From: Candidatus Thalassolituus haligoni | GTDB taxonomy: Bacteria > Pseudomonadota > Gammaproteobacteria > Pseudomonadales > Oceanobacteraceae | DNA length: 64,000 nucleotides | Direction of reading: 5' to 3' | Assembly: GCF_041222825.1 (NCBI RefSeq) | Contig: NZ_CP139482.1 | Coordinates: forward strand, 899,001-963,000 | Part shown: in pieces, positions 42,058 to 47,697 of the stretch | How the letters are laid out: every line of letters starts with the position of its first letter | Position numbering within the stretch: the stretch's first letter is position 1 | Translations under genes and position numbers: made by a program | Notes under the pieces: generated by a model | What the model was told of the DNA's origin: nothing | What the model saw: only the letters and a program-made list of their open reading frames with translations | Database searches by the model: none

Positions 42058-43719
42058 ATGGCACAGTATGTATTTACGATGAACCGTCTGGGCAAGATTG
42101 TACCGCCCAAGCGTCAGATTCTACGCGATATCTCTCTATCTTTTTTCCCCGGTGCCAAAATTGGTGTACTTGGTCTGAATGGCTCCGGTAAATCGACCCT
42201 GCTGAAGATTATGGCAGGCGTTGATCAGGATTTCATTGGCGAAGCCCGTCCCCAGCCCGACCTGAACATAGGCTATTTATCTCAGGAGCCGGAACTCGAT
42301 CCGGCCAAAGATGTCAAGGGCAACGTCGAAGACGGCCTCAGTGAGCTGATGAATGCCAAGACCGAACTGGATGCAGTTTATGCGGCGTATGCCGAGCCGG
42401 ATGCCGATTTTGATGCACTGGCTAAAAAACAGGGCCAGCTCGAAGCCCTGATCGAAACCGCCGGTGGCCATGATATTGATCGCCAGATGGAAATCGCCGC
42501 CGACGCCTTGCGGCTGCCACCCTGGGATGCCGATGTCACCAAGCTGTCGGGTGGTGAGCGTCGTCGTGTTGCCTTATGCCGATTGTTGATGTCGAAGCCG
42601 GACATGTTGCTGCTGGACGAACCGACCAACCATCTGGATGCCGAATCGGTCGGCTGGCTGGAGAAATTTCTCGAAGAGTACCCCGGCACCGTGGTGGCGA
42701 TTACCCACGACCGTTACTTCCTCGATAACTGTGCCGAGTGGATTTTGGAGCTGGATCGTGGCCACGGTATCCCTTACGAGGGCAACTACACCACCTGGCT
42801 GGAAGCGAAAGAGAAGCGTCTGGATCAGGAAAAGAAAGAAGAAGATGCTCACGCCAAGGCCATCAGGCACGAACTGGAATGGGTGCGTCAAGGAGCCAAG
42901 GGCCGTCAGTCGAAGTCCAAGGCGCGTTTGGCCCGGTTCGAAGAGATGAACTCGCGCGAGTTCCAGACCCGCAACGAAACCAACGAAATCTACATCCCAC
43001 CTGGCCCGCGCCTGGGTGACAAGGTAATTGAATTCCATAACGTCACCAAATCTTTCGGTGATCGGGTGTTGATTGATGACCTCAGCTTTACCGTACCGGC
43101 TGGTGCCATTGTTGGTATTGTTGGTGGTAACGGTGCGGGTAAATCAACCTTGTTCCGCATGATTGCGGGGCAGGAACAACCGGATTCCGGCGCAGTCGTG
43201 ATGGGTGAAACCGTCAAGCTGGCATTTGTTGAACAGCTGCGTGATGAGCTGGACGACAAGAAAACGGTATGGGAGGCGATTTCTGACGGCCAGGATATGT
43301 TGAATATCAATGGCAAGGAATACCCAAGCCGCTCCTATATTGGCCGCTTCAACTTCAAGGGTGGTGACCAGCAGAAGCGTGTGGGCGACTTGTCCGGTGG
43401 TGAGCGTGGCCGCTTGCAGCTGGCTTATACCTTAAAGCAAGGGGCTAACGTACTGTTGCTGGACGAACCGTCCAACGACCTGGATGTGGAAACCCTGCGG
43501 GCACTGGAAGAAGCGGTATTGGCCTTTCCGGGCGCGGTAATGGTGGTCTCCCACGATCGCTGGTTCCTCGACCGTATTGCCACGCACATCATGGCGTACG
43601 AAGGCGATTCCAAAGTGAACTTCTTTGAAGGCAACTACACCGAATACGAAGCCGATCGCAAAAAACGTCTGGGTGCCGATGCTGCGCCAAAACGTATGAA
43701 GTACAAGCGCCTGGCGTAA
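42058..43719 (+). CDS. ettA: Energy-dependent translational throttle protein EttA (ABC-F)
   Basis: The product is 553 aa (E. coli EttA is 555). Two ABC domains without membrane parts are present: Walker [10 protein letters not shown] and GGNGAGKST, signatures [13 protein letters not shown] and [13 protein letters not shown], and Walker [12 protein letters not shown] and [11 protein letters not shown]. The start [20 protein letters not shown] is characteristic of EttA. It binds the ribosomal E site and gates the first peptide bond according to ATP/ADP. AAGGG precedes the start by seven bases. Confidence 0.97.
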
Positions 43720-44006: not shown

Positions 44007-45215
44007 ATGAGTAGCCATCCACTGTTTACCGATTTTTCCATCCCCTTGTCCGTGACGCTGGCCGCCACAATCGGGCTGGAGGACGCTGTCTTGCTGACCA
44101 TTATCAATCAGGCTGCGGTATTGCAGCACGACAGTAGCCGTCATGGCATTCGGTTGGCGCGGGAAACGGTGCGGCAGCAATTACCCTTTTGGGATGATGT
44201 GACGATTCGTCGTACCCTGGCCAGTCTGGTCGACAAGGGGCTGGTGCGCTTGCACGGCCCGATGTATCCGGAAAGTATTGAACTGGTACTGAGCTTTGAT
44301 CAGAACCAGTCCTCGGTCAACGCTTCCGCCCAGCGAGTCGAAACCAGCCAGGCCATGGGCACCGGGTCTATGGGGCGTGGGCCTATAGGCACAGGGTCGC
44401 CGCCAACCAGCGCGATACCGACAGGTCACCAGGGGATCAGCAACGAGTGGCAGCCCGGTGCTGACACTCTGACGCGACTGCAACAGCATGGTATTCCCAC
44501 CAGTTTTATCTGGACCCAGCGGGATGTCTTTTTATTGCAGGGGCAAGAGCAGGGGGCTAATCGTAATGACTGGAATACCCGCTTTTTCCGCTTTGTCAAA
44601 AAACAGTGGGTGTACGCCCAGAACGACGCCGAACGTCAACGGCTACAGCAGGAAAACCAGCTGAATCGCAGTGGTTTTAATGTTGCCAGTGACGAAGCTG
44701 CACCCATTGGCCACCAATGGCGACCAAGTGAGGACGCGCTACAGATTTTGCAACGTTCAGGTATCGATCAGCAGTTTATTGACGACGCGGTAGCCGAGTT
44801 TATTCTTTACTGGCGCGAGCGGGGCGATGCGTTAAAAACCTGGAACAGCAAGTTTATTCAGCATATTCGCCAGCAATGGGCACGCTATTCAGCAGCCATG
44901 GAACACTCTACGGTGCCCTTGCCGATCGCCAGCGACTGGCAGCCCTCGCGCGATTGTTACGATATTCTCGCCATGGCTCATATTGATCCGCAATTTGCCC
45001 GCGAACGGGTAGCCGAGTTTGTACTCTACTGGCGTGACTCCCATCAGGTGCATAACAGCTGGAACAGTCGCTTTTTGCAATACATCAAACAACAGTGGGC
45101 TCGTCAGTTGTCGCAACCGACCACCCAAGGAGGCAAGAATGGACAAACAACTGCTGAACCGGACTACACAACAGTTGAAGCAAGTTTGCGCCGACTCAAC
45201 GACACCAGCTGGTGA
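44007..45215 (+). CDS. Replication protein with winged-helix N-terminus and three DnaT-like repeats
   Basis: The product is 402 aa. Residues ~5-95 look like a winged-helix domain (RLARETVRQQLPFWDDVTIR RTLASLVDKG). Three copies of the DnaT C-terminal domain follow, at about 148-201, 238-291 and 311-364. Each copy has W(R/Q)PS/G.D.L..L...GI, a VAEFxLYWR or related helix, and WN(S/T)(K/R)F..(H/Y/F)(I/V)(R/K)(Q/K)QW. Classical DnaT has one such ssDNA-binding domain. A Gly/Ser/Thr linker (118-140) separates the parts. The gene overlaps the lambda-P-like loader gene by 77 bases, so the two are expressed together. There are no phage genes nearby. Confidence 0.8.
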   Translation: MSSHPLFTDFSIPLSVTLAATIGLEDAVLLTIINQAAVLQHDSSRHGIRLARETVRQQLPFWDDVTIRRTLASLVDKGLVRLHGPMYPESIELVLSFDQNQSSVNASAQRVETSQAMGTGSMGRGPIGTGSPPTSAIPTGHQGISNEWQPGADTLTRLQQHGIPTSFIWTQRDVFLLQGQEQGANRNDWNTRFFRFVKKQWVYAQNDAERQRLQQENQLNRSGFNVASDEAAPIGHQWRPSEDALQILQRSGIDQQFIDDAVAEFILYWRERGDALKTWNSKFIQHIRQQWARYSAAMEHSTVPLPIASDWQPSRDCYDILAMAHIDPQFARERVAEFVLYWRDSHQVHNSWNSRFLQYIKQQWARQLSQPTTQGGKNGQTTAEPDYTTVEASLRRLNDTSW

Positions 45216-45789
45216 TGATGGCTCGCGAGAAGCCAACACCGCACAAAAATCAGCACTGAATCAAATGTTCGAGCTGTTTCGCTTCAACTACCACAACCAG
45301 TTTCTTAAAGCCTTTCCCGACGCGGCGACCCTGATCACCGCCAAGCGATTGTGGGCCAGGTTGTTAATGGACTATCCGGCCAGCATGATATTGTCGGCGG
45401 CTGAGCGAGCAGTGAAGGAGTGCAGTTACCTGCCGAATGTGCATGAGGTGATTTCTCGTTGTGATCTGGCGGCAGAATTTGGTGTTCCAGACGCTCACGC
45501 CGCTTATATAGAAGCCTGTCGGGCACCGTCACCAAAAAAGGACTTCGGCTGGAGTCACCCTATCGTCTATTTTGCCGGGCGCGCCAGCGACTGGTTTTTT
45601 CTCGCCAACAGTACTGAGCAGCAGGCATTTTCGGTGTTCAAGCGTAACTACGACTTGCTGCTGCAACGACTGCAACAGGGTGAGGATATTCAGCTGGCCG
45701 TCGACAAGGCGCTGCCCGTCACCATCGAACGCCCACTGGATCGTCAGCAGCAACAAGCGAATTTGCAGCAGCTGAAGTCATTGCTGTGA
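45139..45789 (+). CDS. Lambda-P-like replication protein (putative helicase loader)
   Basis: The product is 216 aa. FELFRFNYHNQFLKAFPDAA, LWARLLMDYPASMILSAAER and AVKECSYLPNVHEVISRC resemble the phage lambda P family, proteins that load DnaB by opening its ring. There is no AAA+ ATPase domain, so it is not DnaC. A strong AAGGAGG site lies just before ATG 45139, inside the 3' end of the DnaT-repeat gene; a longer in-frame extension to 45019 is rejected. A C-terminal Gln-rich helix follows. The pair looks like a chromosomal, phage-derived helicase-loading module. Confidence 0.75.
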   Translation: MDKQLLNRTTQQLKQVCADSTTPAGDDGSREANTAQKSALNQMFELFRFNYHNQFLKAFPDAATLITAKRLWARLLMDYPASMILSAAERAVKECSYLPNVHEVISRCDLAAEFGVPDAHAAYIEACRAPSPKKDFGWSHPIVYFAGRASDWFFLANSTEQQAFSVFKRNYDLLLQRLQQGEDIQLAVDKALPVTIERPLDRQQQQANLQQLKSLL

Positions 45790-45915: not shown

Positions 45916-47697
45916 TTAGTGATCCTGAGCGGCGCCAGCGCCTTTGGGAACACGGATACTTTCGACCATTTCTTCAATATGTTTAGGTACGGGAGCTGTC
46001 ATGCTGGTTACCGCAAAGGCAACAACAAAGTTGATCAGCGCACCCATGGCACCAAAGGCTTCCGGTGCAATACCAAGGAACCAGTTGTCCGGTGTGTTTG
46101 GCAACATTTCGGTGCCAGCAACAAAGAACCAGCCTTTGTAGGTGAAGATGTATACCAGGGTAGACAGCAGACCAGCCAGCATACCGGCGACCGCTCCGGT
46201 GTTGTTGATCTTGGTGCTGAAGATACCCATCATCAATGCCGGGAAGATCGAGGACGCTGCCAGACCAAAGGCCAGAGCCACTACCTGAGCCGCGAATCCG
46301 GGCGGATTCAGACCAAGGTAACCCGCCACCAATATGGCACCTGCCATGGCGATACGAGCAGCCATGAGTTCCTGCTTCTCACTGATGCCTGGCATAAAGG
46401 TGCTTTTCAGCAAGTCGTGCGAGATAGCCGAAGAGATTGCCAGCAACAAACCGGCTGCTGTTGACAGTGCAGCTGCCAGACCACCAGCGGCTACCAGTGC
46501 AATGACCCAGTTAGGCAGGTTGGCAATTTCAGGGTTGGCCAATACCATGATGTCTCGGTCAACCTTGACCATTTCATTGCCTTTCCAGCCGTATGATTCA
46601 GCTTTGGCGGCGAACTCAGGGTTTGAGTCATCGTAGTACTGGATACGACCGTCACCGTTTTTATCTTCAAACTGCAACAGACCGGTGGTTTCCCAGTTCT
46701 TGAACCAATTTGGACGCTTTTCATATTCCAGGTTGGCTTGCGGGTCGCCTACAGCAAATTCAGGGTTCTGAATGGTGTTGGTCAGATTCAGGCGGGCCAT
46801 GGAGCCAACGGCTGGAGCCGTGGTATAGAGGATGGCAATGAACAGTAATGCCCAGCCAGCAGATTTACGCGCATCGGATACTTTCGGTACGGTGAAGAAG
46901 CGGATGATCACGTGAGGCAAGCCAGCTGTACCAAACATCAGTGACAGGGTGTACATCATCATGTTGAAGGTACCGCCTTTCTGGGCAGTGTATTCTGCAA
47001 AGCCGAGATCAACCAGGGTTTGATCCAGTTTGACCAGTAGCGGCGTGCCATCAGCCGTATCGCTGAGGAAACCCAGTTGTGGCAGCGGGTTGCCGGTCAG
47101 GTTCAGCGAGATAAACACCGCAGGAACGGTGTAGGCAAAAATCAGTACACAGTATTGCGCGATCTGAGTGTAGGTAACGCCCTTCATGCCGCCCAATACG
47201 GCGTAGAAGAATACAATCGCCATACCGGAGTACAGGCCGGTTGCGTAGTCAACGTCGAGGAAGCGCGAAAAGGCCACGCCGATCCCTTTCATCTGACCAA
47301 TAACGTACGTCAGTGACGCCACAATCAGACAGATAACAGCAACGATACGGGCGGTTTTGGAGTAGTAACGGTCGCCAATAAAGTCAGGCACCGTGAATTT
47401 GCCAAATTTACGCAGGTAAGGTGCCAGGCACAGTGCCAGCAGTACATAGCCACCGGTCCAGCCCATCAGGAAGATGGAGGCATCATAGCCTTTAAAGGCG
47501 ATCAGGCCGGCCATGCCGATAAAAGAAGCCGCAGACATCCAGTCGGCACCGGTTGCCATGCCATTAGCGACCGGATGAATACCACCGCCTGCAGAGTAAA
47601 ATTCGCCGGTCGTGCCCGCTCGGGCCCATACCGCAATACCCATATACAGGGCAAAGGTCAGACCTACAACGATGTAGGTTAAGGTCGTGAGATCCAT
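45916..47697 (-). CDS. Sodium:solute symporter, VC_2705/acetate-permease-like
   Basis: The product is 593 aa with about 13 membrane helices. The family is shown by the opening LTFALYMGIAVWARAGTTGE FYSAGGGIHPVANGMATGADW MSAASF and GLAASSIFPALMMGIFSTKI. A ~90-residue soluble insertion (about 330-410) is characteristic of the VC_2705 subgroup relative to E. coli ActP. It probably imports acetate or a related short-chain carboxylate with Na+. GAGGAATC precedes the ATG. The upstream gene is its DUF4212 small partner, 27 bases away. Confidence 0.9.
   Translation of the reverse strand: MDLTTLTYIVVGLTFALYMGIAVWARAGTTGEFYSAGGGIHPVANGMATGADWMSAASFIGMAGLIAFKGYDASIFLMGWTGGYVLLALCLAPYLRKFGKFTVPDFIGDRYYSKTARIVAVICLIVASLTYVIGQMKGIGVAFSRFLDVDYATGLYSGMAIVFFYAVLGGMKGVTYTQIAQYCVLIFAYTVPAVFISLNLTGNPLPQLGFLSDTADGTPLLVKLDQTLVDLGFAEYTAQKGGTFNMMMYTLSLMFGTAGLPHVIIRFFTVPKVSDARKSAGWALLFIAILYTTAPAVGSMARLNLTNTIQNPEFAVGDPQANLEYEKRPNWFKNWETTGLLQFEDKNGDGRIQYYDDSNPEFAAKAESYGWKGNEMVKVDRDIMVLANPEIANLPNWVIALVAAGGLAAALSTAAGLLLAISSAISHDLLKSTFMPGISEKQELMAARIAMAGAILVAGYLGLNPPGFAAQVVALAFGLAASSIFPALMMGIFSTKINNTGAVAGMLAGLLSTLVYIFTYKGWFFVAGTEMLPNTPDNWFLGIAPEAFGAMGALINFVVAFAVTSMTAPVPKHIEEMVESIRVPKGAGAAQDH

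Follow-up and report, generated by a model that had tools for sequence, protein, structure and literature searches.

A DopC-DopE gene pair as the probable phage-derived DnaB loader of Candidatus Thalassolituus haligoni

The DNA analysed here, a 64,000-nucleotide stretch (positions 899,001 to 963,000) of the 4.38 Mb one-contig genome of Candidatus Thalassolituus haligoni, which we call the window, carries at 44007-45789 two overlapping genes whose products resemble components of helicase-loading systems (Table 1). In the first product a predicted winged helix and a low-confidence linker precede three DnaT domains, and a short tail ends in NDTSW; the second product belongs to the lambda-P family. 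The pair is a member of DopC-DopE, a type predicted before, and is therefore not new as a pair. In 2017, Brezellec et al. reportedly put forward DopC-DopE as a third helicase matchmaker type, encoded by adjacent lambda O/P-type genes in bacteria without dciA and dnaC/I; DopE is said to come from lambda P and, according to the abstract, DopC from lambda O. Judging from sequence and predicted structure, we consider it highly likely that this domesticated phage O-P type module stands in for DciA, the loader of most bacteria, in loading DnaB on the chromosome. The pair, acquired long ago from a lambda-like phage, very probably serves chromosome replication in the host and its relatives.

The lambda-P-like identity that the original prediction had given to the second protein survived both profile search and fold comparison. 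DopE scored above the curated cut-off of Pfam PF06992 (E 1.9e-8, 34.7 bits; cut-off 26) and matched the PHROG profile 'P-like helicase loader' (E 2.3e-16); a search of NCBIfam gave no match. Alignment by hhalign with lambda P gave a probability of 94.8 (E 5e-8), and a search of the PDB with the DopE family profile returned lambda P first (E 2.3e-6). The DopE model has a mean predicted local distance difference test score (pLDDT) of 86, and the solved structures closest to it are lambda P, the best match, and the SPP1 loader G39P. DopE thus has both the profile score and the fold of the lambda P or G39P type of loader. The window protein is 54-69% identical to DopE of the best 24 named contigs (L064-L087), among which are the genera Oceanobacter, Thalassolituus, Bacterioplanes and Oleispira.

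The winged-helix-like N-terminus and the three DnaT repeats noticed in the translation of the first gene were borne out, the winged helix as a prediction whose matches have the VIA second look as their source. DopC matched PF17948, the DnaT single-stranded DNA-binding domain, with 206 bits (E 4.3e-62; cut-off 25), while Foldseek with DopC found no match under E 0.001. The same domain is present in E. coli DnaT, and dnaT also adjoins a loader gene, dnaC. However, DnaT has one such domain compared with three in DopC, it lacks a DxSW motif at its tail, and its partner DnaC is an AAA+ loader, not one of the P type. The structure of the E. coli domain has been solved with single-stranded DNA bound (4ou6).

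To place the pair among known loaders we surveyed 145 genomes from 47 families, drawn from the window's order. The P-like gene was present in 90 and dciA in 45 (42 over the cut-off), and only one genome (G060) had both; its P-like gene scores 30.7 bits, has no adjacent DnaT and falls among phages in the tree. A DnaT domain was found in 89 genomes, exactly the 90 P-like carriers minus G060. Counted by family, 28 have the pair alone, 17 have DciA and two have neither. Apart from G060, therefore, the pair and DciA, which have the same presumed role, are mutually exclusive in the order. In the host genome itself DciA (PF05258) had no matches, where a control search found it in 7 of 14 known genomes. 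Neither DnaC nor DnaI was found there; the three AAA+ family matches are a 42-codon frame and two proteins that we take from their sequences to be DnaA and Lon. Thus we have adjacent chromosomal genes in the absence of dciA, as in the DopC-DopE type, the absence of dnaC/I having been checked in the host genome only. The domesticated two-protein loader of the original prediction is well supported, since the pair is chromosomal, matches lambda P in profile and fold, is kept in close relatives (all five members drawn from the host's family, the host and four others) and, occurring in 28 families, is not confined to prophages.

We also searched 369 genomes drawn more widely from the class with the DopE profile. 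As not every candidate was scored, the matches are a lower bound: at least 22 genomes, 12 with DciA and 10 without, the host included. Seven of the other 21 loci were inspected. In four of these (G318, G424, G147 and G189) a DopE-like frame, short in G147 and very divergent in G189, lies beside a protein with two or three DnaT domains, and DciA is missing; at two more (G461 and G227) no DnaT was found, and the seventh (G304) carries a fusion, described below. The genomes of G318 and G424 (loci L191 and L192), which lie outside the order, are of only 1.2-1.3 Mb and carry DopE beside a two-DnaT DopC without DciA. They are possibly SAR86-like, and a DnaT-domain protein of SAR86 (P0109) is among the homologues. 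Within the order, three genomes of family f35 (G034, G100 and G128) have 4-10 P-like matches each, of which all but the chromosomal one are probably prophage copies.

Replication initiation is the role suggested first by the way the pair and dciA replace each other. P-type loaders are described as binding DnaB and opening its ring in passages of PMC6391071 and PMC9912922, and from its family and fold DopE would bind DnaB in the same way as lambda P and hold or open the ring. DopC would be the platform: its winged helix would contact duplex DNA or a DNA-bound protein, its three DnaT domains would coat single-stranded DNA at forks or at oriC, and the [DN]-x-[SD]-W peptide at its C-terminus would dock DopE-DnaB, after which DopE would hand DnaB over to the single strand. 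Acting together, the two proteins would deliver DnaB to oriC and, probably, to restarted forks as well. The restart role is an addition that we draw from the DnaT domains and from PriB and PriC, neither of which reached its cut-off in any genome with the P-like gene. The original prediction had suggested that the pair would be a novel kind of primosome or of restart machinery. The idea of a loader stands, with initiation put first, but the claim to novelty does not, in view of the DopC-DopE proposal reportedly made in 2017.

The searches for restart proteins, for which E. coli positive controls found DnaT, the P-like protein, PriC and PriB, gave no PriC over the cut-off in the 145 genomes. Weaker PriC matches occurred in three, with E up to 1e-3 and in frames of 367-716 codons, all of them genomes with the P-like gene. 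PriB was over the cut-off in 15 genomes, all among the 55 without the P-like gene, and in none of the 90 with it. Matches below the PriB cut-off in 43 further genomes were taken for the single-stranded DNA-binding protein (SSB), and the best match in the host genome, 24.1 bits against a cut-off of 72 and in a 270-codon frame, is probably SSB as well; in this the host differs from E. coli, in which DnaT has a PriB partner. The PriB pattern across the order is suggestive only. E. coli DnaT is a restart protein, and one could suppose that the pair is mainly a replication-restart system, with initiation at oriC left to an unrecognised factor or to DnaA alone. The naming of DnaT in PDB entries 9zbt and 9zbu as a restart protein fits such a system, and so does the failure of PriB and PriC to reach the cut-off in any of the 90 genomes with the P-like gene. 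We nevertheless regard it as quite improbable: it leaves unexplained why dciA is absent alongside the pair, and in lambda, according to a passage of PMC6022878, the P-type loader serves initiation at the origin.

Several observations weigh against DopC-DopE being the chromosomal loader. Eleven of the 145 genomes have neither the P-like gene nor dciA at threshold. The distribution tracks clades, and because the genomes are related the survey counts are not independent trials. The absence of PriB is weak evidence, since it extends to 40 of the 55 genomes that have no P-like gene. The one dnaB of the host lies at 3.45 Mb, behind a gene that we take to be rplI and apart from the pair. The fold match of DopE to lambda P has a large root-mean-square deviation (8.8 over 189), and the fold tool warns that Z scores of this size can be reached by chance for helical models. 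Finally, DopC and lambda O gave a probability of 0.1 by hhalign, and with a Pseudomonas phage O the probability was 1.2 and the alignment comprised the tail only. A direct homology of DopC to lambda O is thus unsupported by profile comparison. Since this comparison fails, only the tail, the gene order and the partner tie DopC to O. In gene order, overlap, family and fold of P and the C-terminal NTDW of O, the lambda O/P genes are like the window pair; unlike DopC, lambda O had no DnaT domains that we could find.

Relatives of DopE do occur in phages, in 14 of 50,697 phage records and on 46 viral contigs, as would be expected if the two genes were a prophage remnant or the replication module of a mobile element without a role in the host. 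The distribution and the surroundings of the pair make this extremely unlikely. The same chromosomal neighbours recur in relatives, the pair is in every member of the family drawn and in 28 families, and a tblastn search with DopC of the same 50,697 records gave no match. No tRNA lies in 30000-60000 of the window. The lack of phage genes nearby, stated in the original prediction, agrees with what we saw, none having been noticed among the listed open reading frames (ORFs), which were not searched with profiles. We therefore rejected the window copy as a prophage.

The tail of DopC carries a conserved motif that lambda O shares. The motif [DN]-x-[SDNT]-W, picked after the sequences had been seen, occurs in the last 30 residues of 128 of 131 chromosomal DopC proteins but in only 24 of 2508 other ORFs of at least 150 amino acids. 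The 131 proteins are 52 from surveyed genomes, 78 from named contigs and that of the window, in sets that overlap in genomes; a stop within reach was required, and seven chromosomal loci without a DnaT frame nearby were left out. The three misses are L111, with an apparently broken frame, and the near-motifs DKEW and DRHW. Lambda O ends in ...LTNTDWIYGVDL, which contains NTDW, and O of phage Tr60_Ab31 in ...NDTSWAVGLEQDLF. Widened slightly to [DN]-x-[SDNTE]-W, the motif turns up in 11 of the 45 phage loci that have an ORF upstream, among them lambda O and the host-like contig L144; in the remaining 34 it is absent. The extreme end of lambda O matters according to a published account in which the allele labels conflict, the text naming Oam29 and the table placing Oam29 elsewhere and Oam205 last.

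In the window the overlap of the two genes contains the whole tail, and the TPAG stretch of DopE is the tail read out of frame, so that part of the tail's conservation could be forced by the dopE frame. That the tail is conserved merely as such a by-product seems unlikely, however. The motif is also present in lambda O and Tr60_Ab31 O, whose genes share just 4 and 1 bases with P, and a phage protein of contig L199 retains LTDRSWAE with no dopE behind it. These cases argue that the tail itself is selected.

The L199 protein comes from the one phage contig on which a DopC-type block was found (L199/L200, a viral contig of 57.9 kb). It has 265 residues (L199:2862-3656), with an N-terminal part that matches phage replication initiators (PHROG 9474, E 3.4e-14), followed by two DnaT domains and LTDRSWAE. 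Its repeats pair in order with repeats 2 and 3 of the window DopC (53% and 49% identity, compared with 30-34% otherwise), and over 57% of its length the protein is 83% identical to a 383-residue DnaT-domain protein (P0002) that we take for a host DopC. The neighbouring genes are NinB-, NinG-, endolysin- and tail-chaperone-like, and the DopE/P profile had no match in the 8.65 kb of the 57.9 kb that were searched. DnaT beside P was seen in 4 of 51 viral loci, each with one copy. Because such phage loci carry a single copy, multiplication of DnaT after domestication is the simpler reading, with the L199 protein, which has two DnaT domains and no P in the stretch examined, as the exception. Four viral loci (L163, L176, L177 and L181) encode a phage O-like protein that carries a single DnaT domain; the domesticated module may have come from such loci.

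These results allow a wider proposal, which we make tentatively and which seems to us possible rather than probable. DopC would be a modular helicase-recruitment scaffold in which repeats 2-3 and the [DN]-x-[SD]-W peptide form a portable dock for P/DopE-DnaB. At least one phage would have taken this block from a host and set it behind its own initiator-like domain, dispensing with P and recruiting the DopE-DnaB of the host. DciA, and perhaps with it the restart branch through PriB, would have given way to the module, probably more than once, and DnaT would have multiplied after domestication.

The number of domestications was addressed with trees of DopE and P. In the first, 96 of 103 loci were kept, lambda P itself and L158, L183, L185, L187, L193 and L195 being too weak or short; the second, more careful tree has 79 rows, after removal of 17 with long branches or near copies. 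The window falls in a group of 38 rows (support 92/95), one of them the viral contig L144, that adjoins one phage group. A second chromosomal group of 7 rows (100/96) stands beside P of Halomonas phage QHHSV-1 (97/89). A common origin of all chromosomal DopE is disfavoured by the two groups, although the approximately unbiased test did not reject a single chromosomal clade (p 0.185). From these sequences, two domestications of DopE are likely.

The architecture of DopC varies among relatives. By genome counts, 22 of the 28 families include a member with at least three DnaT domains, and in 15 of these 22 such a number was read directly in a single frame. Two members of family f16 have four domains, and f47 includes a form with two and no winged helix. 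A single-DnaT form without winged helix adjoins genes that we named from sequence as metG and/or apbC-dcd (L035, L036, L039-L041 and L047-L049; families f2, f8 and f35), and a single-DnaT form with a winged-helix-like N-terminus is found elsewhere, in f6, f27 and f38. At L195 (4371-5525; genome G304, without detectable DciA) one frame of 385 residues joins a DopC-like winged helix and a remnant to the N-terminal domain of DopE (hhalign 96.9 for the DopC part and 97.8 for the DopE domain). This natural fusion supports the view that the two proteins act together.

Gene order was compared in the best 80 of at least 538 confirmed named relatives, with flanks of up to 6 kb. Upstream of the pair lies radA in 39 and ettA in 12, and dnaB follows downstream in 34; next to the exchange with dciA, this proximity is the strongest pointer to function. 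The upstream neighbour in the window, which we take from its sequence to be ettA, agrees with the order in relatives, and the gene at 45916-47697 is, on the same footing, presumably a symporter of the solute:sodium type. The two ORFs, their overlap and the strong ribosome site of the second were confirmed. The ORF caller starts dopE at TTG 45019, but the ATG preceded by the ribosome site is the likelier start. With starts chosen by Shine-Dalgarno sequence, the overlap is 60-130 bases in 34 of 46 loci with a callable start, the window included (median 86).

Table 1. Positions in the window of the dopC and dopE genes, their parts and the upstream neighbour.
Feature	Position	Strand	Description
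ettA (presumed)	42058-43719	+	upstream neighbour of the pair
dopC-like gene	44007-45215	+	ATG start, 402 aa; predicted winged helix, three DnaT domains, C-terminal NDTSW peptide
Winged-helix domain, predicted	44040-44306	+	DopC residues about 12-100
DnaT repeat 1	44433-44624	+	most divergent, 44.8 bits
DnaT repeat 2	44703-44900	+	domain search
DnaT repeat 3	44922-45116	+	91.3 bits
AGGAGG ribosome-binding site of dopE	45128-45133	+	inside dopC, in front of ATG 45139
dopE-like gene	45139-45789	+	ATG 45139, 216 aa; lambda-P-family helicase loader
Overlap of dopC and dopE	45139-45215	+	77 bases; DopC tail also encoded there
NDTSW peptide, proposed DopE-docking motif	45198-45212	+	motif conserved in DopC tails

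In the open-licence literature, a scope that leaves out the 2017 DopC-DopE paper, we found no experimental test of the pair and no account of the tail motif, the captured phage block, the fusion or the PriB pattern; these, together with the usual three DnaT domains, are what the present analysis adds to the known pair. With the tail motif, the captured block and the fusion, the O-P contact can itself be tested in a cellular system. PMC13326638 (2026) lists DopE as one loader family in use. In PMC5109545 (2016), Cellvibrionales are an order lacking both dciA and dnaC/I, with the loading of DnaB left open, and a figure legend adds three Oceanospirillales species without these genes. Named relatives from Cellvibrionales and Oceanospirillales of this kind carry a pair of the window type, and a two-protein phage-type loader would answer the question left in 2016 for Cellvibrionales. 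Such a loader occurs in 28 of 47 families of a single order and lies near dnaB in 34 of the best 80 named relatives.
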